Shown piece by piece: positions 4,479 to 56,400 of a stretch of DNA of 64,000 nucleotides. The stretch is taken from positions 7,378,001 to 7,442,000 of the forward strand of contig JAWQUS010000002.1 of NCBI GenBank assembly GCA_036365455.1, read 5' to 3'. Every line of letters begins with the position of its first letter. The stretch's first letter is position 1. Source of the stretch: Macrosoma leucophasiata. Lineage: Eukaryota; Arthropoda; Insecta; Lepidoptera; Hedylidae. Position numbers and translations under genes: made by a program. Under the pieces are notes generated by a model. That model saw only the letters and a program-made list of their open reading frames with translations, was not told the DNA's origin and made no database searches.

Positions 4479-13914
<9,436 letters not shown>

Positions 13915-18983: not shown

Positions 18984-20712
18984 ATGGTGAGTGTTGATAC
19001 GCGTTTCTTTATTCTTGCGGAATAAAAAGTGTATAATTCATCAAATTATAATTAGTTTGCTTCTTACTTTGATATAAAGTGGAATTAATCATATATCATT
19101 AGTCTTTCTTGTCGTGAATTAAGTTTTATATTTACAATACAGTTCGTAGTGAAACCTCGTGGCGACAATGTCATTTACATGCTCTCGTGTGATTCTAGCC
19201 GCCCAAGAAAGACGCAAAGGCTTCGGCCAAGCAGCCCCAGAAAACTCAGAAGAAAAAGGAGGGATCAGGTGGTGGCAAAGCCAAGAAGAAGGTAAGCGAG
19301 CACTAAGTGAGGTTATGTGCCCATGTCAAGTCGAGAATATCTTTCCAATGTGCATAAGATATCTGAATTATTGATATTGTGATTCAGAAAGTGTACCTAT
19401 CAATCAACGTAATACTGAATTTCTCATTATTATAAGGTTTCTGTTACCAGTAGTTTTGAAACCATATGATTACATACTCCAAGCTTGATTTCAACATGAA
19501 AGCTTAAAATGAACTGATATATTGAGTCTGATGGAATTTTATCAACACCTACGGTAAGATACTATTTTTTTCATTTATTTCACACATTTGTTTGGTTTAT
19601 TTTGCAGAAGTGGTCCAAAGGAAAAGTCCGTGACAAATTGAACAATCAAGTACTGTTTGACAAGCCCACTTATGAGAAACTTTATAAGGAAGTGCCCCAG
19701 TACAAACTGATAACCCCTGCTGTTGTCTCCGAAAGGCTAAAGGTGCGAGGTTCCCTTGCCAGGAGAGCACTCATCGAGCTCAGAGAAAAGGGTATGTTCT
19801 TTACTTTCAATTATTGTATTAGATTTAGATAAACTAATTTAAAAGTAATTAAAATAAAAAAGTAATTTCCCATTCTTTAAAGAATGAAAAGAAATAATTA
19901 TTGATATAGATATAATATTATTTGCAGTACAATGCATATGCGCATGTGTATTTGCAAAAATATAATATTAAAACAATGGTGATAAATATACCTTTAGTCT
20001 TTTTTTTGAAGGGGCCTAAATTTCGTAACATAATACACATAGCATTGCTAAAAAGTAAGTTCACTGTATCCCAGTGAAATTATTTGAGCCTTGATAAGGG
20101 GTTGAATTATAAAATTCTTATCTTTTTACATATACATTTAGGCCCATATTAATGGACAGACAAAATGTAGTCATGTTAAGAGCTAAAGAATCATATTTTC
20201 AGTTCACATTGATGTTAAATGATGACTGCAGCCTATAAACACCCACACAGACCAGAGGTGAAAATACAGTTAAAATACAGATTCATTGCCACCCCTGAGA
20301 CCTTAGTCATGTATTTGTGATAGTTATTATGAGGCCATACATTACCATCTAACCGGAACACTGTTGTGCTGAACACTTCCATTTGGCAGCAGATAAATTA
20401 GGTAATGCAGTGGTGCCTACACCCTTGAGCCCTTCCCTACACTGGAACTCTACCACCAGTTATTATATTATTAAAATAGTAATAGGTTTGCAATTGTGTG
20501 ATGAATATTTTTACTGGAATTACCATGACAGTTAAAAACTGATATATTGAGTCTGATTTAGTTCATTTTTATGTTTAATTAAAGAATTATCATCAAGCCA
20601 AATTTTTAAACAAAGAACATCTTTATTTGCAGGTCTGATCAAACAAGTAGTCCAGCATCACGGACAGGTGATATACACAAGGGCGACTAAGGGAGACGAC
20701 CCTGTGGCGTAG
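18984..20712 (+). CDS. RpS25: 40S ribosomal protein S25 (eS25)
   Basis: Component of the small ribosomal subunit head, near the tRNA exit site; also used by IRES-driven initiation. Four exons join in phase to 119 aa. Exon 1 codes only the ATG (18984-18986). The others are 19199-19291 (basic tail [14 protein letters not shown] and onward), 19608-19791 and 20633-20712. The globular winged-helix part contains [33 protein letters not shown] and the end [14 protein letters not shown], all diagnostic of eS25. Splitting right after the start codon is common in ribosomal protein genes. AATAAA is at 20734-20739. The stop is only 78 bp from the stop of the convergent dehydratase copy 1, so the 3' ends are likely to overlap. 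Confidence 0.97.
20190..20460 (+). repeat. Interspersed repeat family A, near-complete copy
   Basis: Located in RpS25 intron 3: 'agttcacattgatgttaaat', 'gatgactgcagcctataaac', 'cacttccatttggcagcaga', 'gtaatgcagtggtgcctaca', 'ggaactctaccaccagtt'. Confidence 0.7.
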
Positions 20713-20790: not shown

Positions 20791-23700
20791 TTATTGTACA
20801 CCATATTTCCGCTTATCATCCAATTCAATAATTGCAAATCTAATGGCAGGGAACAGATCTCGTAGTTTATCTTTGAAAGTTATAGCATGCTCTTCACTTG
20901 CAATCTCCACAACAACATTAGCCTGAAAAAATATATGAATGCACCATTTAGACCTTTCGTGTTAGTAGTGATGTAATAACAAATTTAAAAATAAATATAT
21001 TATTTCCATACACCTATGTACCCACAGATCATCTCTGTCTGTGTATGTACCACTTGCTCATAATAGGTATATCATATTACAGACTGCATACCTATTATTT
21101 TATGGATACAACAATTGTTTAACATTGAGTATAGGTACTATCGGGGAACTGCTGCTTAACACACAGTCACTATGTGGGCAATAAAAGCTATATTTCACTG
21201 AATTTGGATGCGCTAAGAGGAGCTTGGCGACTCTTCCCTGATTACAAAATGTCTTATATGCGAAAGATTGCTAGTAGAAATTCACAGACCACAGTACGAC
21301 GAATGAGAGTAACTTTCAATACTAATTATGTATCAAAGACGTGTGAAAACTCTTTTATTTAATATCTATACTGGTTCCTGTGAAGGAGCTCGAAGGCGTA
21401 GGCACCACCGCATTAGGTACCTAATCTATCTATAAAGTCTTAGTGCAGTTTGTGAATATCGTCCTAAGTGGCCCCAACAGTTGCGATTCTTCAAGATGAC
21501 GACTGCCAGCAATAGGTTTTGTAAGCTCCACAAGCCTCTCTTCCATCGGTCAAAAGAATAAGTGTAGGTATACAACATTATGGTCAAAGGCCAACAGCGA
21601 CAAACCCAGGTTGCAGTTACGTCGCCGTCCACCGCCGGGCTCCGTCCGGGATGGGTTTGTCGAATTGCATGAAGCCAGCGCTCAGACAGAAAAGTGGCAG
21701 CTGTTCATGTAATATCGCCAAAGGCCAACCAAATCAATGTTACCGTAACATTGCTGTGCATGTGCACACGTCTCCTTCACTGGACTCCGACAGTTGATGA
21801 CCTAGTAGGCGAACTGCACGAAGCCCACGCTCTGACGGAAAAATCATTACAAGTTTCTATTACTACAATAATAATATCATAAGGAAACATACCCAGGTAA
21901 CCGAAATATCGCTGTGGACCCACATCTGCTCTGTGACGAGACTTCTCAAGACAGCGCCTCCGTCAGCGATGGCCTTGGCGATTTGCACGAGACCTGCGCT
22001 GTGGTCTGGCACCGGCACCGCGAAACGGAGCAGCCGCCCGCTAGCTCCCAACCCACGCTGGATGGTGCGGGCCAGTTGACTGCTGTCTATGTTGCCGCTA
22101 CTTATTATGCATACGGCTCTGTAAGAAAGCCAATGACTTGTTTTTTCCCCCTATGATAGTGTTCGCTAATCGTGTTGAAACACCATGAATGACTAACTCC
22201 CAAGTTTCTTTCTTATTCATAGTGGCATGAAAAGATTCTCTTCAACAATTTCTGCATTCGATTTCTTTGCAGGTTGTAGGTAATTTCCATACATTAGTAT
22301 ATTTATATATTTATTTATTTAAACTTTCGGGCACAATTAAAAGTATCTATCCAGACGAGGCGGAGTTAATACTAGACAGCATTCTATTTCATCTACCAAT
22401 ATTCCCTCTATCCATCCCACCATCCATCCACCCAACCATCTATCTATCAATTGTCAATTGTTAATTATAATAACTTCAAATAGCTGTAGTTCTCAGCCCG
22501 AAACACAGGTTTTACCTAGTTCGGGCATACATATTTTTTTGTACTATTTTAAATATTAAGATATAATTGTATTAATTTTGTGAACTTACTTTTTGAAATA
22601 AACAATTTATTTATTTATGATATTCTCTCCAAGTCTCTTACATGGTAGGCAGAGAGTTTGGAGCGCCAATATAGACCCTGCGCATTCTAGGCGGTTTATT
22701 AATTTAATAGAATAGAATAGAATAGAAAAACTTTATCTGTAACAACATAAAAAACTAAAACGTGTCAATTAATTGTTATTTTATGATAATAGCAATGCAA
22801 ATACCCACTGACCGTTTACCACGCAATTCCGGAACTAGGCCCTGCATAACCGCGACGAGGGCGCATACACCAGCACCATCGGCCACTATTCGCTCTCGTT
22901 CCAACACGCTTATTATTGCACGAGCTATGTACGATTCTTCAACCACCAGCTATAAGTTATTTGATTAGATTACCTACGCATTTATTTTATTATGGTGATA
23001 TAGGTAGAGCTTGGAACTTTGGAACATCAAGAGGGCGCTCACAATATCAAAAATACTTAGGTAGGTACAATGCGAATCAGTTATTTTATAAACATACCTG
23101 TATAAAAATTAGTGGGTCGTCCCATGAAAAAGGCTGGTAAGAACGATTCACATTTTTAGACAAGTATTAGGTACATAATGTTAGTTGTAATATGCTCTTA
23201 CAAACCGTCACATACGAACAAATAGGCACCCTGTCTGTAGGGTAATAGACGTATTTAGAAGTTGGAATTTGTAGGTCCTTTTCCCCTGTATTTTTTTCAT
23301 AAGCATAAGAGGGTTAGACTCTAACTGGCTTTTAACTTTACCTACATCTTATAGACAGCTTGTTCGCTATTTGACAACGTTTAAATATAAAATACCATTC
23401 TATCCAGCCTCCCTTTGATAGTGGCGTAGGCGTTAGGTCCAACCGATGTGGCATTGAGGCCCTGCGCGAGGTTTCGCACCACGGGCACCGATACCGGCTT
23501 CCCCGCCTGCAGAGCTTTCATCAACTTCGGCACCTTTGCGCACTCTGCGCCCTTTAAATTCAATAGCCATATTATGCATCCCTAAATCAAACACGCAACG
23601 TTCATGTTTGGATATGCAGGAATTTGGGAACTTTTGGTTTGGATTCCAAACCTATTAATCTTGCTACTAAACTTATTTTTGGAAAAACGATTAATAAAAG

Positions 23701-26700
23701 CTACGTTTTCGTGATAATGTTATGTTACTATGGCCAGAAAATATGTAATAATACTACCTATGACGTACTATTAAGTATTCTGTGTGACTTTTAAGACTAA
23801 GCAGTAAAGTGAACAGACATCGCCACTATTGTCCACTATTGGCATAAGGTCTGATTGAGTCTTCTAATCCCCGAGACATATACTATGTGGATCCATGTAG
23901 AATACTTTTTAACTTAAAAGCCTAAGGAATAATAATGTTTACTGGTGGTAGAGCTCCAGTGACGGAGCTCGCGGGCGTAGGCACCACCGCATTACCTAAT
24001 ATACTTGCTGCTAAATGGTAGTGTTCAGCACTATCGTGTTCCGGTCAGGTGGTAATTTCCGGCACAGAGGCGTGTGGTAACGCATCGGCACTTTGACCTT
24101 GGTCTTTGTGTGGGTGTCTATAGGCTGCAGTCATCACTTAACATCAATGTGAACTGCATGCTTGTTTGCCACTTTCATTACATAAAAAAAATAAAGAAAT
24201 AAATAAGGGTTTTGAGAATTAAAGTGGCAATCATCCAGTCTACCCCCGACTGGTATTGATTGGCACTTAAATTCTCTAAACCGTAAGGAAAGATGAGAAG
24301 GGTCTATTGGGTTTCATTCTGATTTCTGTCTGTTTAATCTAGTAAGTGTCGCCATTTTGTATGTTTCCCCGACTAAAGCAGGCAAACAAAACTCGTACAT
24401 AAATAAGACAAGAGCACTTGAGTTTCTTGCAAGCGACCAGCACGCCGGCCAAGAGACCGCCACTAGAAACCGGTACGATCACTGCATCGGTCTCAGGCAG
24501 CTGCGTTATTATCTCCACACCCACTGTACCCAGGCCAGCCATCACTAGTGGATCGTCTGAGCTGTTGAAAAATTGCTTCGGATTAATTCTAAAAAAAAAA
24601 ACTATTCACTAGACAAGATACTCCCCTTGGTAGCACGGTTTCAGTTTCAAGAAGTCAATTGACCACACTTTCACAGTAACAACACAGATGATGATGTGAA
24701 ACGTCTCGCATAAATATCTGTGAAATCTGTCGGTGTCTTCTCTATTTAAATTTAACCGCGTTGACTAAGCATAATATTATGGAAAGGGGCCTACCTCATT
24801 TTCTGAAATTAGAACAGTATCAACAGCGTAGTTAGGTGCTCCAACTTAATTTTTCAACAGCGAACGCTTGCATATTATATTTTAATGTACTCTTAGATAG
24901 AAGTAGAGAACGGAGTATAGATCACGGAGATAACCCTAAGGAAACTAAAACAGTTCCACGGAGTTTGAAAGCAATAGGTTGGTACCTACTTCACACCTCC
25001 TAAACGGCCAATCTAACCGTGAGTTTGCATTGATGAAACATTCACATAAAAACATGTTAAAATGAGAGGTTTGACAGCAGTGCGAACGCTTGCACCAACA
25101 AGACATTCATCGCAATACATACTTTATGCGACGAGTTGCGAAACATTATCATGTTTAATGTTTTTAGTGCAAACTAGGGGTAACGTACACCTTGAAATAA
25201 ATAAGTAGTAATAGTTAAGAAATTCGAAATTATTATGTTTGAAATAGAGATAACAAAGTAGGGGTAGAAAATCAAAAAAATATACCTCAGCACCATTTGA
25301 TTGCTATCACGAGTTACTTTTTTAACATAATTGAATGCGTCTGCGACGGTTTCTCCGCACAGCACGACGTCTGCCCCTAAGTCCGAACATCGCTGAGCAT
25401 GCGCGGGTGGCGTTCGATCGGGTAACACCACCGTCACCTACATGCAACATTTTTTTAAGCAAAATAGTCATGACGTCTTAAGAGTGGCCTACTGTTAAAC
25501 TACTGTAGACTATACACCAGCCAGAGACGCCTACCAATGTAGAGTTGCCACTCGCCAGGCCCGTTAATTTTTCGATGAACAAAGAAAAATTATTTAACTA
25601 AACATACGACTAAGTAGAACCTAATCTTTATAAATAAAATTTTCGTGTCACAGTGTTTGTAACAAAACTCCTCCGAAACGGCTAAACCGATCATTACGAA
25701 ATTTTGTGTGTATATTTGGTAGGTATGAGAATCGGTTGTAGTCTATTTTTTATAGCCCTAAATGATTCTCCCCAAATATATTTTTTCGAATTTTTGTACA
25801 CTTCATTTTTTAAACAGGTATCTATCCTTAGAGGTAAGGGAGGCTATACGAAGTACGTCGGGGCAGCTGGTAGGTAATTCATAAATATGGCCATTATGGC
25901 AATCAGAACATGATGATAAACTTGGCAAAAAATATAAATTTCAGAGCTTCTGTGATCCAGTTGGTGGATATCTAAAGTATTTCTACTGGCACCGAGACAT
26001 CGGGAACGGCAACGCTTTATTTCCGTGCTTCACCGATGTAAATTTTTTTATATGTCATCAAGATGGCAAACAATCATGCATTTAAAAAAAATACCAGGAC
26101 ATACAAAATTATTATTCTTATCAATTTAATGTGTCGCATTTCTGGAACGATGAGGGAGGGGAGGTTACGAACCCGACCGCCTATGTTAAGAAGTCTGGTA
26201 TTCAACGGTGTGAAATGCATATCTTTTTCTTTCTTTTTTCTTTCTTAAAATTACATCTGTTTGCCTACCTTCTTATATTAATTTCGATTATGGTTACCTA
26301 ATTAATGTGGTTATGTTATAGCACAGCACAGATCGCAACAGTAAGCGATAGGTTCACCGAGATCGAAAGAAGATATATAAGTAGGTATTAATATTAATTT
26401 CAGGTACTCACCGGAATTCCAAGATTGACGCCGTGATAAGCACTACCCAGTGCTAAATTCCCGTTGGATGCCACTATAACGCCATGGTTGCAGGCTTCGT
26501 CAATCCTCGTAATAAATGCATTTCGAACACCTCGTTCTGCACAGCTAAATAAGTCGTTCAATTTTACTTAGTCTACGTCTCCTGGATGACATCACCAATC
26601 CAGGTCCAGTCATATTATAAAACCTCGATAGAACGCAAATATATTTTCACCGCAACGAAAAATGGTTATCTATCTATAGCTTCACTCGTATCTCTCTAAT

Positions 26701-29245
26701 TGGATTTTACATCTAAATACCTATACTTTAAGTGATGAGGACTAGAAAATCTAGAAATCGGAAAATTTATGTAGGGTCGCTGTCACATTAGTCTTTATTT
26801 GTAGAGAAAACGAATCATACGGATTTTTGTTTTTAATAATACATTGCCTAGTACCGTCCTATCTAAAAGTAACCGTCACGAGAAGCTATAAATTATGTAA
26901 ACAAACATCTTTTACTAAGTAAACATTTTATACTGCGAGATAATAATAACTTGAACATATTCAATCGACTTGAAATATAGACGGGTTATATGAAAGTAAC
27001 AACCTATTTAATTTAGTCGAATTATATTTTAACGACGCAAAGCGCTATCGTTTGTGTTTCTTGGTACCGGAACGCGTCCGTCGCAGGGATTGTAAACCAT
27101 CGGGACGCCATTTTGAAATAAACAGTCATTCGAGTTTCGAATACGTACGAGTTTGTTTGTTTCATTGCTTTGCATATATCGCGGATCTGGTTGTTATTGT
27201 TAATTTTGTTTTTGTTTCGTTATCACTTTTTAATTGTTGTAACTTTAATTGTTGCGTTAATTTTATTTGTTATTACGTATAATGGAGCCAGTAGCCAGTA
27301 TATCTAAGGAAATAAATTCGCCACGAAAAAAACGTCAAAAGGTACGTAATACAATTTATCTAAAATATATAATAAGTAAAAAGAAAGAGTTGTTTGTTCA
27401 AACGCGATAATCTTTGGAAACTTTTATTAGAAGTACGTTTTAAATTGTGAAGTAATTGGTTAGGTTAATTGGTATACCTGGAGATATAGCTTGAGCTTCG
27501 TGTGAAAGTGACTGAACAGGTGATTTTTACAGGTGACGAGCTTTACGGCTAATGAGAAAAATATGGTGATCAACGTATATAAGTACGTGAAAGAAAATTG
27601 GCCATCGAATGAATATCCCTACAAAACCGAAATAAATAAAAAAACAGCAACGATTTTGGGAATTGGCATCGCATCTGTGTATAATATATTAAAAGAATAT
27701 AAATCAGAAAAGGGAATAAAATCACCTATCAAATCTAAAGACAGGCCTAAATTTTATCAGAAAGTAGACGATTTTGATAAATTCGTAATTAGGAAAAAAA
27801 TTCACAGTTTCTTTTTAAATGGCCAATTACCAACAATTCCCAAGATTCTTCAGGCAGTAAATGACGATGAAGATTTGCCAAATTTTAGCGAAACAACTCT
27901 CAGGCGGCTAATAAAGCATTTAAACTTTAAATACATAAAACGACAGCGAAATAACGCTACTAAATGATATACAAAATTGGCTTGTAAGTAAGAATATTTC
28001 TTACGACGACAATGAAATTAAGACTGAATTACTGCTAAAAGTAAAAAATGTTAAAGACCATTTTAAAACTTATGTAGTGGACGAGCTCGCAAAAAAATAT
28101 AAGGTGGAAGTATTGAGACTCCCGCCATATCATTGTGAGCTTAATCCAATTGAGCTAATTTGGGCCAACGTAAAAGGATATGTTGCTCGCAAAAATACAA
28201 ATTTTAAATTTGACGAGGTAAAACAATTATTACAAGAGGGACTGCAGCAGATTACTTCGGAAAATTGGAAGCGTTGTGTGGAGCATGTTATCAAGGAAGA
28301 AGATAACTTTTATTCCAAAATCGATGAGATGATTGATAAAACTGTAGACAGCTTCGTGATACATGTCACTGATTCTGACACAGAAATGGAAACATCTGAA
28401 TCTGACGAATAATTATTCTGAAATAATATATGTTAATTAATAAATTATTAAATCTTAAACAAATTCTTTTTTTTTTTGGTCCAAATGTTGTGAACTCCTG
28501 AACACTTGTTTACAAAATTTATAGCTTCTCGTGACGGGGACTTTACTTACAGCAATCTGTGGCCCGCCCCGGATTCGCCCGCGCTGCTCCGTGCCTATTA
28601 GTCAAAGCGTGTATATAGCCTTCCTCGATAAATGGGCTATCTAACACTGCAAAAACTTTTCAAATCGTAGTTCCTGAGATTAGCGCGTTCAAACGAACAA
28701 ACAAACTCTTCAGCTTTATTATATTAGTATATAGACAATAGCAATGTATTAAAAACAAAAATCGCACTAATAGCAGAGAGTAATATGCTAATAGTGCCCA
28801 TCACTAGGTACAGTCAGACTCACGGTTCTCGCCATGGTCCTCACGGATGTATCAATGTCAGTAGGTGTGAGTCTGAATTGATAAAGAAAAGTGAACCTAA
28901 TAATTATAGTATGGAAAGGAAGGTAGGTAATAACTATTAAAAGTAAAATCTTGAACTATTAAAATAACATTTTTAAAAGCTCACCTTCCTGTATATTGCA
29001 AATTCTCACATTTCAAATAAATATTGTAATCCATATATTTGCTCAATTTAGCTTCCTGTAATATTGACATCTATTAATAAATGTGTTATCTACAAACTAA
29101 CTAGGTAGGTACCTACCTACTAAATATGAAAAATACATACGCAAAGGGGTGTGTGTATAATACCATCTTCATTCCTTTCACATGCTTGTTTGATTTCGTT
29201 AAACGATAAAATATGTGGATCGATTTCTAAACCAGAAGCATCTTC
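20791..29245 (-). CDS. Threonine/serine dehydratase-like protein with ACT domain, copy 1 (predicted pseudoenzyme)
   Basis: Fold-type II PLP family, resembling ThrD-II-type threonine ammonia-lyase. Nine minus-strand exons join in phase to 424 aa plus stop: 29245-29141, 29055-28985, 26544-26412, 25437-25286, 24561-24399, 23551-23396, 22949-22813, 22118-21893 and 20922-20791. Several match copy 2 base for base in length (71, 163, 156, 137 and 226 nt). A short first coding exon is expected upstream and was not found. The normal SFKERG motif, which carries the PLP lysine, reads SCAERG: Phe to Cys and Lys to Ala. The asparagine loop is SNGNLALG (His and Gln lost), the phosphate loop is VSSGGL instead of VGGGGL, and SGGN is SSGN. 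The ACT domain (LLRFAVPVPDHSAGLVQIAK onward) is complete. With no stops or frameshifts, it looks retained but catalytically dead. An extra intron (25438-26411) splits one ancestral exon. Another intron hosts a DNA transposon. Confidence 0.85.
22280..22745. repeat. Degenerate interspersed repeats in copy 1 intron
   Basis: 'ctttcgggcacaattaaaag' and 'tagttctcagcccgaaacac'/'cctagttcgggcatac' blocks, then an 'aatagaatagaatagaaaa' tail. Probably old retroelement pieces; no open frame was recognised. Confidence 0.35.
23937..24190 (-). repeat. Interspersed repeat family A, near-complete copy
   Basis: Reverse orientation, in a copy 1 intron: 'tactggtggtagagctccag', 'tgctaaatggtagtgttcag', 'gtctataggctgcagtcatc', 'cttgtttgccactttcatta'. 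Confidence 0.7.
25540..25880 (+). repeat. Interspersed repeat family E
   Basis: 'cacagtgtttgtaacaaaac', 'cgaaacggctaaaccgatca' and the end 'gaagtacgtcggggcagctg' form a common dispersed insect repeat. It lies inside the intron that is unique to copy 1 (25438-26411), so it may have contributed to that intron's length. Confidence 0.5.
26864..28546 (+). mobile_element. DNA transposon of a DDE (Tc1/IS630-like) type, internally deleted
   Basis: Inverted ends share 'ccgtcacgagaagctataaa' followed by 't.tgtaaacaa'; the left copy begins about 26876 and the complementary right copy ends about 28535. The outermost bases and target duplication are not clear. It sits in the copy 1 intron between the exon ending at the TGS codon and the SCAERG exon. 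It carries a spliced but deleted transposase gene (27282-28412). Confidence 0.75.
27282..28412 (+). pseudogene. Deleted DDE-superfamily transposase
   Basis: Exon 1 (27282-27341) encodes MEPVASISKEINSPRKKRQK with a basic, nuclear-localisation-like end and a GTACGT donor. Exon 2 starts at 27533 and encodes a helix-turn-helix region to 27967. A second frame from about 27957 to 28412 encodes LLNDIQNWLVSKNISYDD, then VDELAKKYKVEVLRLPPYHC and ELNPIELIWANVKGYVARKN, ending with an acidic tail. The 'PPYHCELNPIELIW' block holds the last catalytic acidic residue of this DDE type. The segment that should carry the first two catalytic aspartates is missing at the junction near 27957, so the protein cannot be active. 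Naming beyond 'Tc1/IS630-like DDE' is uncertain. Confidence 0.75.
28553..28740 (-). repeat. Interspersed repeat family C copy
   Basis: 'tggcccgccccggattcgcc' to 'tcagctttattatattagta', directly beside the transposon's right end and inverted relative to the copy at 6648-6860. Confidence 0.55.
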
Positions 29246-33565: not shown

Positions 33566-34393
33566 TCAATTAATAGCTAAAGCATCATTTTGTCCTTCCT
33601 GTGCCAATTGTTCTTGGAGATTTAACAGCTTGGTCTTCAATACTACAATACCCATCAGAACAATATTCTCTGGTTTCAAGGCACCAGCTGATTCCACATT
33701 GAAAAAGAATTTATTAGGTTTTGCCTCCCAATTGAACTCTGCTTCATATTGATCTTCATCCAGTTCTGTATGTTCACTTTTGGGCCATTCATCTGGTTTT
33801 GGATACAGGGTATGTCTCATGGCATTATCAGGATCATATTCAAAACAAACACCAGCTGTTGGGTTCCACTTTGCATGCTCTTTACCAAAACCTTTCTTAG
33901 CGTAAGCATGTAATTTCAATTCTTGACCTTTTCGAAGTTTTATTATGAGTATCTCATCAAGTTCTCCATACTCCGCCTGATCTTCGTCTCTATGGCGGGA
34001 CGTTACTGGTACAACTCGTGGGTCATTGGACTTTAAGTCAGCTGTCGTCACGTGCCTTGTTTGGTCGTCGGTGCACTTTACGTCTAAGGTAAACATCACA
34101 CTACATTCGGTGCAGAAGTCGGCACACATGCAATCTCTTGAATAGCGAATTTTATCCACGACATCATCAGATATAAGAGGAATAAGACCAATACGGTGTG
34201 ATAGAAACTCGTCGCTCAGTACAGTAGAGTTAGCTTCCAATTGTACCCAGTCAATGGCCATAGTCGGCGTTTCGGCTATAAACACTCGTCTCATGCTGTT
34301 CGCTACGCTCAGCTCCGTATCCTCTACCACGAATTTCACATTATCGTCAGTTAGTTCGGTTATATGCACCGACGGTTGGTTTGCGTAGGGCAT
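33566..34393 (-). CDS. RPB3: DNA-directed RNA polymerase II subunit RPB3
   Basis: RPB3 pairs with RPB11 to form the alpha-like assembly platform of RNA polymerase II in the nucleus. The open frame encodes 275 aa, the same length as the human subunit, with ATG at 34393-34391 and TGA at 33568-33566. The alpha-motif region contains [20 protein letters not shown] and [10 protein letters not shown]. The zinc loop Cys88-x-Cys90-x3-Cys94-x2-Cys97 ([10 protein letters not shown]) is complete. Further signatures are [20 protein letters not shown] and KWNPTAG. The C-terminal dimerisation part ends [20 protein letters not shown]. The coding region is uninterrupted, unlike its intron-rich neighbours. It lies between dehydratase copies 1 and 2 but has no functional link to them. 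Confidence 0.97.
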
Positions 34394-34767
34394 CTTCGAG
34401 AACAGAAGCTATCTTCTTGTTCGTTATGTACCTTTGAGATGACGCTTACTGCAGATTTAGGTTAAAAGTTTTTACAGCACATACATTTGCACCAAGTAAA
34501 TTTATAATTGTTACGGTTTTGTAGAAACTGCCTGCAAAATAGACATCAAAAAGATTACATACCCAAATGTTTAATCGTAAATTCAATTAATTCAATTAAT
34601 GCGATGCAAAACGCAAAATCGAACATTAAAATTGTTTTTTGACATTGACAGAATTGACAGTTTGACATTGATTGACATTTCGCATTGAGTGCGTTTTTAT
34701 TTTATATATAATGGCATTGCTATTACACATATTGCCAGTGTCAAGTTAAATGATATTTCGTATTCAT

Positions 34768-37146: not shown

Positions 37147-38037
37147 ATGGAAACTTACAAAAATCACCAACCTGTAAGTAATTGTTACTAAGTACACATT
37201 GTTACAAATATTTTCTTTTAACTATGATTAATTCTATTTATAACTAATTTGGTTTAACTGGGTTAATATTTCACTAAAATTGAGAGAATATTGAATTAGT
37301 CGATACCATTATAAATTTCGGTTCTTTTGTATCTTCAAATCAACCGAAATATTTGCAATACATCGAGCTTAGCCTACCTATGAACATCTCCAAAAACGCG
37401 TAGTAAGTAGGTATGTGTATTATGTTCTTGGCAATACTTCATCGAGCTTAGCCTATCTAAGGAAGGCTGATTGGTCTGTGCCTACCTATAAACATCTCCA
37501 AAAACGCGTAGTAAGAATGTGTATTATGTTCTTGAAGTTACTAGTTCATCATCTTAGAACATATTATTATTTATTATAGACTAGCGGCCCGCCCCGGCTT
37601 CGCACTGTTGCAATGTTACCTACCCTCTCCTATTCATCTTAGCGTGATGTAGCCTAAAACCTTCCTTGATAAATGGACTATCTAAAACTTAAAGAATATT
37701 TCTAATCAGACCAGTAGTTCCTGACATTAGCGAGTTCAAGCAAACAAACAAACAACAAACCAGCTTTATAATATTAAGTACAGATTTAATATGGAAGGTA
37801 ATATACAGACCTAGACTAAAAATTCTGTGCAAATTTTAAGCGTCTACTTGCTACCATTATTATCGAGCAAAAAACATATACGAAAAAAACACCTTTATTG
37901 TATGCCTCTTGGACACCTTAACATTTTAATTTTCTTATTTTTAGTAATTAAATTTGTCTTTATAGCGGTCATAGAAATACATTATTTGTTAAAATGTTAG
38001 CTTTCTAGCTATCACTATTAATGAGATATAGCCTGGT

Positions 38038-38068
<31 letters not shown>

Positions 38069-41000
38069 AGACAGCGGAGGATTAGTCATTCGTAGGATCC
38101 GTTTTTACCCTTCAGGTACGAAACCCCCTAAAAGATAGAACTAAGATACAGAATAGCTTAAAAATATTCGATACGATTCTTTAAATTGACATACCTTTTT
38201 TATTTCTGAACCGATTCACATGAAACAATCACTAAATGTTAAGTGAGACTCACCACAATATATTGGTGAAAATCGCACATCGAATGGCCGTTTCTGAAAT
38301 TAGCGTGCACAAACACATAGACAAACAGACATTATTCCGGGATAAAAAGTACCCAGTGTTGTGCGCCAAAGGTTAAAGTATAATTATACCATACTATAAT
38401 TATACCAAGTTTCATTGTAATCGGACCGGTAGTTTTTATGTGATGCTTGAACAAACAGACAGACAGACAGACAAAATTTTTTCTAATCACATATTTGGGT
38501 TCGGTATCGATCTAGTAACATCCCCTGGTATTTATTTTTTTCAATATGTTTAATGTACAGAATTTACACTTCTACAGTTTTATTATAAGTATAGATAAAC
38601 TTAAGTACATACATCCTATTAATCCTAATAGTTGTTTACCTAATCATAAGTCTTTGTTTACCCCAAAACAATCTAACTGAGATTGCGTTCAACTCTAACC
38701 CTCGTTGATGGCAATTAAAGTGTAAGGAAATAATGAGTACCTACGAGTAATAAAAATAATTATATAATTACTTTAATTATTATTATGTTTCACATTAGGA
38801 AATGGTATGTTAAATTGAATGTAAGTTAGAGTGTGGTAAGGATAGAGTCATGGTGTTCCAGACAATCGAATATGATCCCATGTGCGACAAGGAGAACCCT
38901 CAGAAGATATCGTTTGAGGATGTATCTGCAGCCGCCTTCAGAATACAAAGCGGTATCGTCAAAACACCTTGCGTGGTAAGTCAATTTTGTTGTACAAAAT
39001 ATAGCGCGCGTATTTTATATCAACCGAGTTTAATATACTAAAATGATAATTTATTAAAAAACCTCTTGCAGAAATCACACATGTCAAACATATTCGACAT
39101 GGACATTTACTTGAAAAACGACTTCTTACAGCATACTGGAAGGTAATAGAACATCCCATGGATTTTTGATTCCTAGTATACCTATTTGATTGCGTATAAG
39201 TTGCACGCTAAGGTTAATATTGTCAATTGCAGCTTCAAAGAACGTGGTGCACGTAACGCATTACTTCTTCTATCACGCGAGGCGAAAGCCCGGGGTGTGA
39301 TATCGGCATCTCTGGGCAACCATTCTCAAGGGCTCAGTTACCACGCTAACCTCCTGAATGTACCCACAACTGTGGTCATGCCAAACATCGCGCCTATCAT
39401 GAAGATAGAGAATTGCCGTTCGTACGGTGCCAACGTCATAATACAAGGACACGATATGAAGGAAGCTAAGTACCACGCAATGACGTTGGCCAAAGAAAAA
39501 AACCTTACTTACATTAATGGGTAAGAAATTGCATCATACTGAATACAACGACCTCCAACTTCTTATTTATAGCTGAGAACGTTTTGCTGATAACATTTTA
39601 TGTCAACATCTGTTTCTGGAAATAAAATAAACTCAAGTACACGTTGATGATACATTATTCCAGAAGTACGAGTAAGTAAGTGCTTCAAAACTAAATGTTT
39701 CTTAGCACTTGCTTCGTCGTAACAATTATTACTTCTAACTAAGCTCTACGACTAAACTTGCCGCTTTATTTAACCTTTAAACTTACATACAATACTCGTA
39801 TCTGTGAACAGTGGCAGTGTTAATTCATAAGATTCACTGATAGCACTGATCGAACTCAAAGAATGGCATAGTTAAGTTCACATGTTTTGCAATCATTGGA
39901 TTTGACTTCAATGATTGAGAATCTGCTACTGCTTAAAATTGTTTTCGCTCGTATTTAAGGCACAACCTTAATACGAGTGAAAATAATTTTAAGGAATACT
40001 TTCTATGTCAAAGGTGGTAATATTAGAAAATTTTGTACAGTCACCAAAAAGAAACAAAAATGATTTTCGTAACAAATATGAAAACTGTAACGCAAGTGAA
40101 ACAAAAAGAAAGTAATAGGGCTATTTCACAATGAAAATAAAACAATAGGTTGATTCAGATAACTTTTTAAACAAATCAACAATAACATTACTCAATAACA
40201 TATTATGAAGAGTTCGGATCGTAAGAATATTATTAAAATGAACCAAGTTTAATTTAATAAAAAAATTAGGCCTGTCAAGTGTATAATATGTCTCTCTTTC
40301 TGTCACCATCGTGCTATGCTGTCGATAGGGAGACATATACTTGACTTGGCTCATTTAAATAATATTCCTAAGAACAAAACTCTTGACACATTTTATGAAT
40401 TAAAAACATGAATAAAATTTTAACGATCAGCTATAAAATAACTATGACAATTAACAGATATGTGTTTATCAGCCTCATAATTAAATAAATGGCACATTAA
40501 AACATTGCCAAATAGTAGGTCATGTTAAGTAAAAATTTTACCCTGGGTTTCACCAACATATTTGTTAGTAATGAATTTTATTAGATTGTCACTAACACTT
40601 AGTTTATTAAGTCTCTTACTAACAAATAATGAATGGATTTTTGATTATCTGAATAAATTATATTTAAAAGCTAAATAATATTTACATAAAATAAAGTTAT
40701 ACCTAAACTAAAAACAACATGCGTCTAAAAATTCCGCATCACTGCCTAAGTTAAAGTTATTGTAACATATCACATACAATAACTTTAACAAATATGTTGA
40801 TGCAACCCTATTTTTTAGAATTCTTCATTCTCTCCTTCTCTTTTTTGCACTCTCCGATAGCTAAGCTATTTTAACATTCTTGGCTTTTATTCTTTCCAAG
40901 TTTTCCGGATTTCTTCATATTTTTTAGGATCCTGTTCTTTATGTCGATCTCTATACCTGCGTTGTCATTCGGCAGATGTCATAGGCATTTCTAAAACAAA

Positions 41001-44000
41001 TAACATATTGTATCAAATGAAAATAATTTATTTCGTTTAAGGAACTAATGGGTCACCTAACAAAAAACAAAATTGTTTAACAGTTAAAAATGCATTAGGC
41101 ACATAAAATAGACTTAGACACACCATTTACACTAAAATGTATGCATTACCATACATTTTAGTGTAAATGGTGTGTCTAAGTATAATCCATCACCACAAAT
41201 CCATCTACCATAATGTCTCGATAAATAATAACTATCTTATTATTGACTTAATAAAAAGCATACCTACTACCTGTTCAGTTTATAGTGAAATTGGCTTTAC
41301 TTCCATTTTGTTGCATCATTATTGTTAAGTAACAAAAAAATGTAACAACACGGAATAGAAGTCACATGTTTATTAAAACTTCAATCAAAATAAATACTTC
41401 CAAAGAAAGTCTTTTGATTACTTTTCACTAACTGTACTAACTGTCACTATTTAGCGTTTCCTGATTGGTTGTCGAGTGCAAGAGCAGTGTAGTTAATTCA
41501 ACATTTTTAAAACTACTCAATATTGTTGTTACAAAATAGAATAACAAAAATGAAAAGAAGTATGGACGCAGATTTAAGTTATCTTAAATCATCCCAATGT
41601 TTTTTATTTTCAAAATTCTACGACTTACTAGATAGGTTTAGTCAAACAGAGCTTAATTTTTTGATTAAATGTATAAAGTGAGTAGCAAATCAGAAACGAA
41701 TATATCTTTTGTAACAGCCACATTTTCGAGGACAAGTATTGTTCTATGGGAGAAAAACGGTACCTTTAAACTAAAAGGCGAAATTTAAAAAAATCTATTG
41801 TAACCCAGGATATATATTGTCATATTTGTTCAAACTACACTTAAAACTTAAGGTATACATTATTATCAGAGAGAGATTCACATCAATATTGTTAGAATCA
41901 TGCGTGGAAAAAAAAATTGCGTGGTTAAAAAAATTGTACATTTCTACATGGTGAAATGTCACATTTTAGTGTAAATGGTGTGTCTAAGTCTATTTTATGT
42001 GCCTAATGCATTTTTAACTGTTAAACAATTTTGTTTTTTGTTAGGTGACCCATTAGTTCCTTAAACGAAATAAATTATTTTCATTTGATACAATATGTTA
42101 TTTGTTTTAGAAATGCCTATGACATCTGCCGAATGACAACGCAGGTATAGAGATCGACATAAAGAACAGGATCCTAAAAAATATGAAGAAATCCGGAAAA
42201 CTTGGAAAGAATAAAAGCCAAGAATGTTAAAATAGCTTAGCTATCGGAGAGTGCAAAAAAGAGAAGGAGAGAATGAAGAATTCTAAAAAATAGGGTTGCA
42301 TCAACATATTTGTTAAAGTTATTGTATGTGATATGTTACAATAACTTTAACTTAGGCAGTGATGCGGAATTTTTAGACGCATGTTGTTTTTAGTTTAGGT
42401 ATAACTTTATTTTATGTAAATATTATTTAGCTTTTAAATATAATTTATTCAGATAATCAAAAATCCATTCATTATTTGTTAGTAAGAGACTTAATAAACT
42501 AAGTGTTAGTGACAATCTAATAAAATTCATTACTAAAAAAAAATTGTACATTTCTACATGGTGAAATGTCACCATGTAGAAATGTACAATTTTTTTTAAT
42601 ATTACCCAGGTACGACCATCCTCACATAATGGCGGGGCAAGGCACAGTGGGTCTAGAAATCCTGGAGCAAGTGCCGGACGTGGACGCGGTGCTGGTGCCG
42701 GTGGGTGGAGGCGGCCTGCTCGCTGGAGTGGCCACCGCCATCAAACATCTCAAACCGCACGTCCTTATTTATGTAAGTTTCTTACGGCGTCTAATCATAA
42801 AAGCTAAGGTATAGTCGATAAAATTTGAAAAAACTGCTTTGGATTATGTTATTTGAACAGTTAACCGTAAAACATAAAAAGTACAAAATTAATTACACTA
42901 CTTATAATATCCTTTATTTTTAAGAACTGTTTACAAAACTATTGTATATACTCGTATTATTAGGATTCTCAATTTGGAATTATATTGAGAAAACATTTTA
43001 ACCGCTCGTATTTTTATGTTAACTTGGTAACCAACAGTATGTCGCTGAAATCAGAACTGTTAGCAATAAAGTTTGGCATGACATAAGCATTTTGGCCAAA
43101 CATATTTTGCATATTGTTTCCAATCCACAGGGCGTGGAAACAGAGAAATGTCCGAGCATGAAGCACGCGATGAAGATGGACGAGCCTGTGAGCGTGGACA
43201 TCCGCTCCACGCTAGCCGATGGCCTCGCTGTGCCTACCGTCGGATACAACGCTTTTCGGACCATTAAACCTTTCATCGATAAAATGGTAAGCTGTTGTGA
43301 AATAGTGACACTCAAATTCAACTATTTACTACTCTAGTAGGTCGTAAACAATACCATAGATAACTAGACAGACAAAATTAATAATCGCATCTAAATTGGA
43401 TGATCCAATTCCGTGGGTTCTAAAGGTTCGGGTTCGTAAAGTAGAAAATGTGGATCAACGGTAGGATCACATAAGAAATGATCTTATGTGATCCACCGCT
43501 GCGCAAAACTCCGATGGCACAGTGGTAAAGCTCGGTTGTGGAGTGCGGTTGAAATATACTGTCGGCTACTACTGGAGAGACAAAGCTGTTCATTCGTCGT
43601 CGTCTTTGGTCTTTGCCTTTATGCGAAACGTTGTATACATAACTAGGGGCTGGCCCCGGCTTCGCACGGGTACAATTAACGTTAGCCGCACTGCTAAAGG
43701 CTTGTGTAAATGTTAATTCAAATAAAGCCTGTCGAAACGATATGAAACACCGACGGCTCGATAAAAAACTAAGAAAAGTACACGCACTTATATACATAGT
43801 GCTCTGAGATTATGTTGAACTTGGTGTCTGCTTAAATAAAGATTTGTTCTGTTTTTTGTAATCATAGCAATTGTTTTTGTTTGACGTCGTTACAGTACTA
43901 AGATAATTAAATAAAGGTACGCACTATAAAAACTGATAATACTTGCTAAATATGATTTAACAATCTAATAATATTTTTGTTTATAACACAGAGTCAAAGT

Positions 44001-47000
44001 TCAGCCATGGTCGTCCGTACTCACTGATGTTGATATATTATATGTACAGTGTTCAACAATAAATATTGCACATCGACCTCAGGAAGGAGACTTCGGCTTA
44101 TTTCGGGTCTGTAGAGCGTTATCTCCTTCGCACCGTACCTATTTGACGTTTGTCGACCATTTGGATCAAGTTTTGACCAATACCGGACTGTCAGTGTTTA
44201 CGTTGGCAGTGTGCAACAGAGATAACGCTCTACGAAGTCGAAACGAACCGATCGTCTCTTTGGCAGGCTCGATGTGCAATATTAATTGTTGAGTACTGTA
44301 TATGCTATCCTAATTACGGAGTTATATCTACTACTTATTACTGACAGGTCCTTTCTCTTCGGTAGAAATGAAAAAGAGTGTGTGTCTTGAAAAAGAGTGC
44401 ATACTGCCAACAATTTGTTTTACTCACTAACTATTCCTTAACTTCTATTTCACCCACGTAATTAAACATACAGTTAACGTAACTGACAGTTAAATTTTCA
44501 AAGTTAGTTTAAATTGACATTATCAAGATATCGCACCTCGTTTAATTAGTGGCAAACAGCAAAATGATTTGACTTCGAGTTTAATCTGAAGTTCTACTCT
44601 ATTAAATCCATCCTTACGGCCTTATACTAGCGGATACTAGCGGATTGCAAGCGTTCTGAAATCGGAGTGGGCGCGCAACATTTTCGTTGCGGACGCGTGG
44701 CAAATAGGCAACAGTTGCTTAGGTATCGCAACATTTTCGTCGTATGTTTATAGCGAATTAACAACGTACAATACACTTGGTAACGAAATGGATTCCGATG
44801 AGGAAACACTGCTGTTAGCTTTGATACTTCGGAAACGTCGGAGTCCGGAGATGAAAACGAAAGCATTGACGAATTTTGAAGATCCATTATCAATTAGATA
44901 ATCGAATGAAAGAGAGCAATTACTATGTGTACGTTGCGCGCCCGTAACGTATTCGTAGTGCGTCCACTCCTCTTTAAGAACGCTCCCAATCGGCTAGTAT
45001 AATAAGGCCCTTTGAGATTGCTGGATTATTACCTACAGGCTGTCCTACCACGAATGACGAACCACATCTAGTAGGTACGTGTACGTGATTTATAAGACGC
45101 AGGCAATAATTTACGTGGTTATTTTACTATTACATAATTGAGAACACTTTTACAATCCATGCGAATAAAAAATCCCTAAAATACGATGATGCAAGCAATT
45201 TATGCAATTTGTTGTGGCGTTTTATTACCCAATACCTACGTGATACTAGCATGAAAGAATTGTAAGATGCAATAACTATCGTATCTTATTTATTGCTGCG
45301 TGTGACCTTTCATCTTTAGATTTGATCCAGTTTAAAATACAACGGGAACAAACCAGTTCATATATACAGTATATTAAATACAAAATATGAATGATTTATG
45401 TATCTTCACACCAGATCCCGAACGGGGTAGGCAGAGAGTGTGAAGAGCCAGATATTCCAGTCCTAACACACTGAATGATGAACATTCATCATTCTCTTCA
45501 TACATGCACGCCGATTTCTAAGACTTTTGACCGCACCATCAGATAGTAGTCGACCTATTTGGTCATGGCAACCATCCACATTCGCATTGTATATCTGTTT
45601 AGTCATTCGCTCATTCGACATTCCCGAACCATCGGAGCATGCCCTTTATTTTTTTTACGCCGATACTCTCATTCACATTCAAAATATGAAGTAGATACTT
45701 AGCATAATCAGAGAGGGCATTAGTAAGCCATTAACATGTGCCGAGCGTAGACATAACCGTGAAAGTTCCTGACAGTTCCTTACGGATTTCAGGTTACACA
45801 GGTAGTTACGCTTCTTAGGTATACACATAGGACAAGTATCTTATGATATCTTGTATCATGATCTACTTACTTAAATGACTAATAGTTTTCTATGTTGATA
45901 ATTCGATAGATAACAGTGAACGAAGATTGGATAGCCCGCGCCATTTTGCGACTGGTGGAGCAGGAGAAATACGTGGTGGAGGGCGGCGGCGCAGTCGGCG
46001 TAGCTGCCATTATGGCCGGTCTAGTGCCCGAACTCACCGGCAAGAAGTTAGTATAGCTTATCTTACAATGTACTCGTGGTAGAAATATTATAGAATGGAG
46101 ACGCTGGAGTTGAAGAGAACAACGAGTATGTGTGTCTTCTTCGAAGATCTGCGAACGTGATTTTTTATTGCTATCTAATTTTTTCGTTTCTATATACACG
46201 CTGACATGTAAACGAAAAAAAAAACAATGAGAAATACTTTCTGAGATCAGCGCAAACAAACAAAGTCTTTAGCTTTTTAATATTTACTAACTACAGAACG
46301 AATGATGTAGTTTTTGAGACATTCAATAACATCTAATCTAATTTATCACAAAACACACACTGTTACAAACGCTACACCATTATAAGGAGGCGTTTCCCTT
46401 TGAAACCAGAATCAATCGGATATTTGTTACTGTTTGAAGAAGTCGAACCGGCTTACATAACTAATTAGGTAAATAGTATGCTGTTAAACTATCAATATTA
46501 ATATTTGGTCAGTCGAACAAACCGGATAAAGAAAGTGTCGAATGTTATCAATGAAAGCATCATGAATATACCTAATAATGAACAATAATAAAACAACGTG
46601 TTGACAATGTAAGATGATATTATCGTAATGTTCTTTGTCTTGTGTAATTACTTATTATTGTTATGTGTATTATCATAACTATGTTTTTTTAAAGGCTCTA
46701 CCCGGTTGGTCCGTTCGCCGCGGGAACATCTGGGAATATATCGATTCGACGGTCGTGGTTCGATACTTGTACCGGAACAAACAGGGGCGGATTTCCCTAT
46801 TGGCCGAGTAGGCCCGGACCTAGGGCGGCAAAATTTGTTCGTTTTTTTTAAGTAGTTGCCTACGCGGCGCATTCGTGTAAAATCTCAAAAATGAGTCCAT
46901 ATAGCATCTCGCGATAAAAATTAACATGTATGGTAATTACGATTATTAGAAGAATTAATTGAATCACTTACTGACAATCGTTTTTTTTTTCATTTTAATT

Positions 47001-53478: not shown

Positions 53479-56400
53479 ATGCCTGACGTAAGTATTAGCG
53501 TTACTTATAAGTGAAAAATTCCTGTGGTTCTTGTGAAAGATTTACTGTAGAACATTACTTCCAAACTAAAACGTAGGTTACGTATGTTTATTTGGAAGCC
53601 TACGTGAAAATTGCCTCTCCTCACGAATGCCTCATGGCTGACTTTAATTACGTAATAATTAAAAAATATCTACCTACCCCGTAAGGGACTTGTCATGAAA
53701 ATACAAACATACAACATACATAATAATTAATCTTAAAGGAGGTTGATTTCGATGAAAACTGCGATCCCAATAATCCAAGAAAAATCAAATATGATGATGT
53801 ATTGGCTGCATCGCGTCGCATCATAGGTGCAGTTCAGAAAACTCCGTGCACGGTAACTGTGATTCAAAATATTATGAATTATCTATAGTAATATTTAGTA
53901 AATAAATATATTATTAACATATTGAGTTGGCAAATTTGACAGATGGCGCCACTGTCATTTTTAGTCGGTGTCGTAGCAACGCGTTCAGGGTACAGCTAGT
54001 CCTACTACTATTATAAAGGCGAAAGCTTGTAAGTATGGATGTATGGATGTTTGTTACTCTTTCACGTAAAAACTACTGAATGGATTTGAATGAAACTTTA
54101 CCACAATATAGCTTATACATCAGAATAACACATAGGCTATAGCTTATACATCAGAATAACACATAGGCTACAATTTTTGAGGTTTTTAATGTGAGGTCGT
54201 AGAAAAAACACATTTTTTGCGCTTACATTGCAAACGCTGACTGAATCCTACAAGATAGATCAAAACAATTTACTACAGTATTGTACAACTTAAAAAGGTC
54301 TACAAAAAAGTCCGTGATGGTATATGTTTATCTCTTAGGAATAACCCACAATAACCATTTTTTATCCTTTATTGCTCAGATTTTGAGTATTGCTCAGATT
54401 TTGAGCAATACAGTATTAATCCTTATCCAATTAAGTATCTTAAATACATTGTGCATTTAATAAAGATCAATATGGCTTTTTACAGCATGTAAATTAAATA
54501 AATATTTTCGAAGATATCACAGATTTAAAATGCAGAGTCATAGCAATTTCGGCGATAAATACCGTTTCGGTGATAAATACCGGCAGCGGCGCCAGGCGAA
54601 CGGGGCGTGGGGGGAGCGGGGTAGGTGCGGTGGGGAAGAAGTGGCTCATCGCTGAGTGCGCGACCCGAACGCGGGCAGACGCGTGAGGGTAGACGTCGTT
54701 GATGGTTGTGTCCGTTTTGCGAATTTTCAAGGCACTAGCGATTTGATAAAAACGTATGGTCGCCTACTTTAAGTAATATAGGCCTAAGGTTAGTTATTGC
54801 CAGGTTTCTTTTTGGTTAGGAGTTACACGTACAAATTAGGGCTCTGCAGTGCTTAGTTACCGTATTTCTTACTTATTACTAGAGTAGACGGGACGAACCT
54901 GAAGTCCACGCGAACGAAGTCGCGGGCAAAAGCTAGTCATTAATATAATTAATAACACCAAACTGTTTTTTATAAAACATTTTGCTCCACCTTAACGTGG
55001 TTCCTTCTGAAATTTGCCTCACGATCTATTCTCATACCTACCTATCAAATATAAAAAAAAAACTATTAAAAAATATGTCAAGCTGTTTCCGAAAAATGCG
55101 ACAGGACATTTTTATTATACTAAGAATACGAATAATAAAGTCTATGAATTGTATCTTTAATGCAATCATCGTTTCGATTTCGGTTCCATTTTCACAAATA
55201 AACTAACAGTAACTGCAGTTATAACAAACACGTCAAACACTCACACTTTCAACATATCATTTGCTCGTAAAGACGTGATAAGGTTATTTCGGCGAACGGC
55301 AAGGAAACGTGCACGCTGCGATGGTGCTGCGGTGTGCCTTTTTATGCCCCGCTCATAATGTGTATGTAACGCAATGTAACGTTTTTCAGAAAGCGCTCAT
55401 GTCAGATAAACTTGGAATGGATTTATACCTGAAACAAGAATTCATGCAATTCACAGGATGGTAAAGTACCTATATTTTAACTTAAAATGATTTATGGTCA
55501 AACTTTCAACTATTTATTTTAGAAGTACTTAATTTTAAAAAAGGCAGAATTTTGTAAACCTTCAGCCACTGATTACGAAGTTAGCACCTTGATTACAAAA
55601 ACACAAAATTACAGCTAAATAGTAGTGTTCACTGTTCAGTTCATATCAATTTAGACCTCAAGAGTGGCAACGCATCTGCCTACATTGAAAACTTTGGTTT
55701 TCGATTTATAGATTACCGTATTCACTGACCATCAATGAGAACTGTGCGCTTGTTTGCCACTTCATAAAATAAAAAAAGGTTCTACTCAAACAAATTTACT
55801 GCAACAGGTGAAAATTTACTAAATAAAATAGGTACTTTTGAGAAACCGATCGCAATTTACAATTTATACACATTTTTCTCTAATTTCGAACACTTCTTAA
55901 AATCACTTCTTCTTAAAATCTTCGTCTTAAAATCACTTGGCAATTTTTTCAAGTTTCAAAGAGCGTGGGATACGGAACACTCTTTGCTTACTGACAGAAG
56001 AACAAAAAAAGAGCGGCGTGATATCAGCATCCACGGGCAATCACGGACTGTCTATGAGTTACCATGCTACTCAGATGGGCATACCGTGCATCGTGGTAAT
56101 GCCAATTTACGCACCGATCACCAAGATTACGAAATGCACACAGTTCGGTGTCAAACCCATTCTCTACGGATTGAACATTGGTGAAGCAAAACACTACGCG
56201 ATGACTATCTGTAAAGAGAAAAAGATGACATATATTAATGGGTAAGAGCATATTGCTGATAGGTATCACTATTTCGAGCATTATCTAGTTAGCTATTAAG
56301 TTTAACTATTTAGTTTACCTTAAAGGAAGTTTCTTTATCTATGCCAAATTCTTGTCGGATGTATTTTGTCTTTTTGGGTTGTGACATTGACACTGCTTTC

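Follow-up and report, generated by a model that had tools for sequence, protein, structure and literature searches.

The closest described system to the gene analyzed here is the insect serine racemase (SR)/L-threonine ammonia-lyase, which depends on pyridoxal phosphate (PLP) and is encoded in Drosophila by CG8129. The gene in question, copy 1, is one of three related dehydratase genes (copies 1 to 3) in a 64,000-nucleotide (nt) stretch of the genome of Macrosoma leucophasiata (Lepidoptera, Hedylidae), the whole of which is called the window below, and copy 2 is the representative of the insect enzyme there. Copy 1 is homologous to this enzyme over its full length, including the C-terminal domain (412 columns, 40% identity), but the PLP lysine and the GGGG loop are missing from it, as are His87, Lys114, and Glu283. 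The biodegradative threonine deaminase TdcB (PDB 2gn0), an active PLP enzyme with no ACT domain, is 30% identical. The available text on fly SR, the product of CG8129, describes D-serine synthesis and an effect on sleep (PMC6504911). Copy 2 is presumably the CG8129 orthologue, as judged from insect-wide similarity rather than from direct comparison with CG8129.

Several other systems resemble copy 1 in part. Serine palmitoyltransferase subunit 1 is of fold type I, CYSL-1 belongs to the cysteine synthase branch and has no ACT-like domain, and the trypanosome S-adenosylmethionine decarboxylase (AdoMetDC) prozyme and deoxyhypusine synthase paralogue have folds unrelated to that of copy 1. In the parts of the sources consulted, serine palmitoyltransferase subunit 1 (hLCB1/SPTLC1) is described as lacking the PLP lysine and working beside a catalytic paralogue (PMC3794620). 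It is thus, like copy 1, a PLP-family subunit missing that lysine, whereas copy 1 is of fold type II, was found here in Lepidoptera only, and has a hypothetical partner in place of the catalytic paralogue of hLCB1. C. elegans CYSL-1, a CysK homologue bound by the EGL-9 C terminus, is reported to have lost its biosynthetic activity and turned regulator (PMC5562914), a passage from enzyme homologue to regulator like that proposed below for copy 1. For AdoMetDC (PMC5201418) and deoxyhypusine synthase (PMC3663545) of trypanosomes, a dead paralogue is reported to activate the live one by heteromer formation; this activation is experimental, whereas any activation by copy 1 would be hypothetical. 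The lysine-less clade to which copy 1 belongs is a new case among known pseudoenzymes. No description of the copy-1 paralogue was found in searches of an open-licence library, judged for the most part by their listings, or in the available portions of PMC9696079 and PMC10151491.

All three copies were rebuilt from splice sites within the window. After splicing, the Schiff-base motif reads TGSCAERG in copy 1, TGSFKERG in copy 2, and TGCFKERG in copy 3, with TGT GCA in copy 1 corresponding to TTC AAA of copy 2. The original prediction for this locus had proposed that SFKERG became SCAERG (Phe to Cys, Lys to Ala), with the reading fixed by a Ser codon split AG/C between two exons, and that GGGG became SSGG, SLGNHSQG became SNGNLALG, and SGGN became SSGN; the first two points hold after splicing and the loop changes were all recovered by alignment. 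A six-frame scan of the window for [FYLCW][KARN]ERG returned three sites, FKERG at 39225 and 55946 and CAERG at 26552. Since SCAERG is the sole such site on the minus strand and nothing in intron 2 resembles an exon of any of the copies (best E value of 0.49), a missed exon giving back Phe-Lys was ruled out.

The protein search behind the survey of this change listed 120 of 132 matches. The alignment comprised 38 copy-1 proteins (P0001 to P0038), 52 chosen comparison proteins, and all three copies from the window, with a segment of human serine racemase added to supply residue numbers; this gave 39 copy-1 rows (the window copy and the 38 proteins, 37 of which are assigned to Lepidoptera) and 54 comparison rows. 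At the column of Lys56 (serine racemase numbering), the 32 copy-1 rows that reach it have Ala in 31, Val in 1 (Brenthis ino), and Lys in none, whereas Lys is present in 53 of the 54 comparison rows, the remaining one being Asn in P0283, a copy-3-like protein of Plutella. The seven copy-1 rows without a residue in this column (P0005, P0031 to P0034, P0036, and P0037) derive from gene models that are incomplete, fused, or exon-skipped. The 31 database proteins reaching the motif represent 30 named species, which we take to represent about 14 families. The same Lys-to-Ala change, which the original prediction had proposed to look for in orthologues, is therefore general among those that reach the column, and the loss of the Schiff-base lysine in copy 1 is neither a sequencing error nor a remnant peculiar to this species. 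Separately, P0283 (Plutella xylostella JYU34_018652) has lost the PLP lysine in a second, separate event: its motif is GSFNERG (Lys to Asn), while its GGGG loop is intact. Lys is retained in the sister protein, P0287.

The best protein matches of all three window copies are in butterflies and moths. A tree was built from 79 rows, leaving out the motif columns, the human segment, and 14 copy-1 rows that were partial or near-duplicates. In it, all 25 copy-1 rows fell into a single clade (100/100), the 58 Lepidoptera rows grouped together (92/99), and a caddisfly protein, P0157, adjoined them (91/91). The copy-1 stem, at 2.38 changes per column, is the longest inner branch. Within copy 1, Eumeta (a bagworm) and then Plutella branch first (95/77 and 98/96), and as both are placed in Ditrysia, the lysine was lost in early Ditrysia or before; the loss probably predates the divergence of the sampled Ditrysia, and the duplication probably postdates the divergence from caddisflies, of which one was sampled. 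The branching order of the three copies is less certain (92/93) and involves long branches. Among the 120 of 132 matches listed, no named protein from outside Lepidoptera resembled copy 1; the best of them was a beetle protein with 39% identity and the motif SFKERG. Copy 2 shares 62 to 67% identity with non-lepidopteran, non-caddisfly insects among the matches listed and, by this similarity, is evidently the insect-wide form of the enzyme.

The copies are also neighbors elsewhere. In Eumeta, copy 3 is EVAR_65872, copy 2 is 65873, and copy 1 is 65874, and the contig of each is listed at 110109 bases; in Choristoneura, MSG28_006863 is copy 1 and 006865 spans copies 2 and 3; and in Hyposmocoma, LOC113226297 is copy 1 and LOC113226296 is copy 2. 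The linkage is thus old. The long models P0121 (Choristoneura), P0152 (Spodoptera exigua), P0154 (Parnassius apollo), and P0005 (Leptosia nina) apparently fuse neighboring copies of the cluster, and P0005 and P0154 also contain stretches resembling further paralogues.

As had been predicted, the nine exons of copy 1 join in phase without internal stops. They give 1275 nt encoding 424 residues, with GT...AG at all introns between them. No stops, frameshifts, or broken splice sites were found in these nine exons. The conservation of exon sizes against copies 2 and 3 was correct in part. The sizes 71, 163, 156, 137, and 226 nt are equal in copies 1 and 2, and intron phases agree between copies wherever introns are common, but where copies 2 and 3 have a single 288-nt exon, copy 1 has 133 plus 152 nt (an extra intron and one codon fewer), the outer exons of copies 1 and 2 differ (105 versus 114 nt for the first, 132 versus 153 nt for the last), and copy 3 splits the 226-nt exon. 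No start codon was found within the nine exons. By eye, orthologues such as P0001 and P0002 have one Met ahead of the residues of the first exon found, indicating that an upstream exon is missing from the model; a scan for it gave the candidates 32942-32895 and 30780-30718 and ten ATG/GT sites, none of which was accepted.

With regard to the rest of the active site, we used a residue list and numbering that we take to be those of serine racemase. Cys occupies the Phe55 position in 30/32 copy-1 rows. Beyond the changes listed earlier, His87 is replaced by Met or Leu in 29 of 33 rows and is His in none, Lys114 is retained in 2/37, the residue 154 column is a gap in all 39 rows (a one-residue deletion), and Glu283 has become Asp in 36/38. 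In the phosphate loop, Gly185 is found in 5, Gly186 in 4, Gly187 in 39, and Gly188 in 15 of the 39 rows, so that the tetraglycine is missing; the loop differs among species, yet consists mostly of small residues. In the asparagine loop, S-x-G-N-H, Asn86 is retained in 26/33 rows and His in 0/33, and Ser83 (33/33), Glu210 (38/38), and Asn316 (37/38) are also retained. The active site of copy 1 is thus rebuilt rather than erased, and the residue at position 56 supports the view that copy 1 cannot form a PLP Schiff base the way its relatives do. The original prediction that PLP binding is lost stands as far as the Schiff-base lysine is concerned (31 Ala and 1 Val of 32), but it overstated the loop changes as proof of lost cofactor contact. 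Because Gly187, Asn86, and small phosphate-loop residues are kept, copy 1 could still bind PLP non-covalently, or an anion.

The loss of catalysis together with retention of the fold predicts that constraint on the active site should fall to background. Where the 54 comparison rows were at least 95% uniform, the columns retained by copy 1 were 4/14 in the pocket versus 45/71 elsewhere (Fisher P of 0.020). Within copy 1, conservation of the pocket (0.772, 23 columns) did not exceed that of the rest (0.790, 400 columns), whereas copies 2 and 3 exhibited the usual excess (0.994 versus 0.878 and 0.906 versus 0.776, respectively). Despite the near fixation of Cys55 and Ala56, such a background level speaks against a newly specialized pocket. 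New catalysis without the Schiff-base lysine, or with PLP held non-covalently, would be consistent with the rebuilt pocket and the nearly invariant Cys55-Ala56 pair; given that Lys56, His87, Lys114, and Glu283 were lost together and that the excess pocket constraint is gone, we regard it as quite improbable. A ligand sensor, in which the emptied pocket and/or the ACT-like domain binds an amino acid or anion without PLP and so alters the contacts of copy 1, would draw on the retained Ser83, Asn86, Gly187, Glu210, and Asn316, on the conservation of Cys55 (30/32) and Ala56 (31/32) themselves, and on the small residues of the phosphate loop. That loop nevertheless varies among species, Lys114 and His87 are largely or wholly gone, the pocket as a set does not stand out in conservation from the remainder of the protein, and the Pfam ACT signature is absent, leaving the sensor a rather unlikely explanation.

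The fold itself appears to be kept, as predicted. PF00291 was matched by copy 1 with 198.4 bits (curated cut-off of 35) and by 26/26 orthologues, and the AlphaFold2 model of a copy-1 orthologue exhibited an intact fold-type II domain followed by an ACT-like domain, placing copy 1, on this predicted model, within the fold-type II architecture. For TIGR01127 (cut-off of 378.75 bits), the scores were 266.4 for copy 1, 400.8 for copy 2, and 325.4 for copy 3, which is cut by the window; for NF005600 (cut-off of 496), they were 273.6, 429.3, and 350.1 (again cut by the window), respectively. Copy 1 therefore passes neither of these NCBIfam threonine ammonia-lyase cut-offs and copy 2 passes one of the two. 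The claim that the ACT domain is kept holds less well. In its favor, the hhalign profile comparison extends through the C-terminal ACT-like part, and the order predicted there in the orthologue model, strand-helix-strand-strand-helix, is ACT-like; however, the Pfam ACT models, which match copy 2, match neither copy 1 nor the window-cut copy 3, and a weak ACT-like match was obtained in 1 of the 26 orthologues. The fold searches, made against PDB sets with the first orthologue model, included indirect (VIA) alignments that barely reach past residue 335, and thus no claim about the ACT-like domain is drawn from their ranking. The intact predicted fold would also suit a binder of an unrelated protein, whose peptide would be taken up by the open fold-type II cleft so that copy 1 controls that partner. 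CYSL-1, described as bound by the EGL-9 C terminus (PMC5562914), is a precedent in the same superfamily. The cleft of copy 1 has no special conservation, and we hold this reading to be improbable, to about the same degree as the sensor.

The window copy departs from the other rows at 3 of the 102 positions that are invariant among them, within a span of 0 to 13 for the 24 rows, and a neutral end branch (0.37) would predict about 7.8 stops where 0 were observed (P of about 4e-4, a rough estimate). These comparisons support the view that copy 1 is conserved and not a decaying relic.

There are also indirect signs that copy 1 is expressed. The coding sequence of orthologue P0034 is intron-free over exons 4 to 9 on contigs of at most 1313 bases, whereas the same stretch occupies 4.6 kb in the window. 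In the Vanessa cardui X2 model (P0031), HTPLC is joined straight to VTVV, omitting exactly 68 residues relative to X1 (P0009); these residues are the product of window exons 2 and 3 (204 nt), which bear both SCAERG and the Asn loop. This junction recurs in the X2 model of Aricia agestis (P0033). Skipping the two exons leaves the frame of the window copy open, which it can do because copy 1 has an intron without equivalent in copies 2 and 3. The X2 models disagree, since that of Nymphalis io (P0027) lacks the exon-6 part and Operophtera P0036 joins HTPLC to VELGAD, and as gene models rather than reads they were set aside as proof of splicing. AlphaFold2 predicted the remaining fold of the Vanessa cardui X2 protein without the 68 residues (predicted local distance difference test score [pLDDT] of 84.1, predicted template modeling score [pTM] of 0.78), which is no test of stability. 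P0034 looks like a spliced transcript and, together with the isoform models, provides indirect signs of copy-1 expression.

Taken together, the clade-wide loss of the lysine, the kept frame, the predicted fold, and the background level of active-site constraint point to copy 1 being an ancient conserved pseudoenzyme, and we consider it very probable that it is a functional one without PLP Schiff-base chemistry. We propose that the insect SR/threonine ammonia-lyase gene (copy 2) was duplicated in the lineage of Lepidoptera, in early Ditrysia or before; that copy 1 lost its PLP lysine, along with a number of further active-site residues, in a burst of change on its stem; and that selection has since held it as a folded, non-catalytic protein. 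Copy 1 may then join copy 2, copy 3, or both by way of dimer and ACT surfaces that it inherited, and tune their activity, and the exon-skipped isoform, if real, would turn off or alter this role. By analogy with the systems described above, our best guess ranks partner regulation first, followed by the sensor and the protein binder; the original prediction had put forward a partner of copy 2 or 3 and an amino-acid sensor as possible roles. Regulation of copy 2 or 3 as the mechanism is put forward tentatively, at somewhat less than even odds, and the whole account, an ancient pseudoenzyme derived from duplication of copy 2 and acting as a partner regulator, is close to evenly balanced. A more specific version is doubtful, namely, a regulator of D-serine/threonine metabolism carried by Lepidoptera that is a lysine-less serine racemase paralogue older than most Ditrysia, joins the active copies, and is switched by splicing out its dead active-site exons.

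Several observations weigh against the whole account. Copy 1 evolves faster than copy 2, with a mean identity of 0.672 (9 species) versus 0.841 (8 species), that of copy 3 being 67% (6 species), in species sets that overlap without being identical. Residues unique to the window branch were not significantly rarer in invariant columns (3/102) than in variable ones (21/317; P of 0.22). The loss of the Pfam ACT signature makes a conserved ACT surface less likely. Among the 120 of 132 matches listed, no copy 1 appeared under the names of Danaus, Helicoverpa, Spodoptera, Ostrinia, or Pieris, though copy 2 or 3 of each was listed in the searches with those copies; these gaps may be due to clustering at 90% or to gene models that are missing, but also possibly to loss of the gene. 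Finally, a Bombyx gene named threonine ammonia-lyase, not matched to any of the copies, had expression below detection in the portion of PMC9696079 available. The faster evolution and the non-significant test, along with a transposon within intron 2, could also be taken as marks of a functionless decaying duplicate or a sequencing error. We find this very hard to credit, since the same Lys has been lost from bagworm to butterflies with Ala in its place, the window copy is free of stops, and P0034 resembles a spliced transcript. A plain pseudogene or assembly error was rejected, the lysine change being common to many species.

The positions of the copies and their neighbors are given in the table.

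Table. Features of the dehydratase cluster and its surroundings (window positions)
Feature	Position	Strand	Remarks
Copy 1 gene	20791-29245	-	Nine exons, 424 residues
Copy 1, exon 1 found	29141-29245	-	Splice-site reconstruction; 35 codons; start-codon exon further upstream
Copy 1, exon 2	28985-29055	-	Ends in AG of split Ser codon; no counterpart in Vanessa cardui X2 model
Copy 1, exon 3	26412-26544	-	C/TGT GCA GAA CGA GGT (S-C-A-E-R-G) at Schiff-base motif; SNGNLALG loop
Copy 1, exon 4	25286-25437	-	With exon 3, a single 288-nt exon in copies 2 and 3
Copy 1, exon 5	24399-24561	-	Phosphate loop SSGG where GGGG expected
Copy 1, exon 6	23396-23551	-	
Copy 1, exon 7	22813-22949	-	
Copy 1, exon 8	21893-22118	-	SSGN loop and beginning of ACT-like domain
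Copy 1, final exon	20791-20922	-	Carries stop codon
Copy 2 gene	37147-48296	+	Splice-site reconstruction; canonical SFKERG and GGGG; Pfam ACT domain
Copy 2, exons	37147-37173, 38862-38975, 39072-39142, 39233-39520, 42610-42772, 43131-43286, 45910-46046, 47294-47519, 48144-48296	+	
Copy 3 gene	53479-62729	+	Lepidopteran paralogue; CFKERG, GGGS; last exon probably past window end
Copy 3, exons	53479-53487, 53739-53852, 55390-55460, 55954-56241, 57047-57209, 58375-58530, 59316-59452, 62208-62307, 62604-62729	+	Start 62604 from phase and acceptor
RPB3 (RNA polymerase II subunit) gene	33566-34408	-	Single open frame, between copies 1 and 2
Ribosomal protein S25 exon	19518-19832	+	Past copy 1 3' end
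Transposon remains in copy 1 intron 2	27524-28412	+	Antisense to gene; two overlapping open frames, second matches DDE_3

An intron of copy 2 contains an inverted repeat (40561-41140 and 41961-42540) with 580-nt arms that are 100% complementary and 820 nt apart, which is either a fold-back element of very recent origin or an artefact of assembly; an intron of copy 3 has, by eye, similar sequence near 59560-60900. Elsewhere in the window are a Mos1-type mariner transposase in two overlapping frames (7603-8656, minus strand) and an AAA-ATPase exon (PF00004; 11889-12221, plus strand).

Copy-1 proteins are named "L-threonine ammonia-lyase" or "L-serine deaminase" in databases. The lysine-less site contradicts these enzyme names, and pathway maps resting on them are probably wrong. 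Dead regulatory paralogues are already known, and copy 1, which is old, occurs through much of a large group of animals, and lies beside live copies, offers a good test case. Since Bombyx mori holds both copy 1 (P0010) and copy 3 (P0256), the question is testable in a laboratory insect. If copy 1 regulates serine racemase, it would bear on insect D-serine, which the available text on the fly enzyme ties to sleep (PMC6504911).
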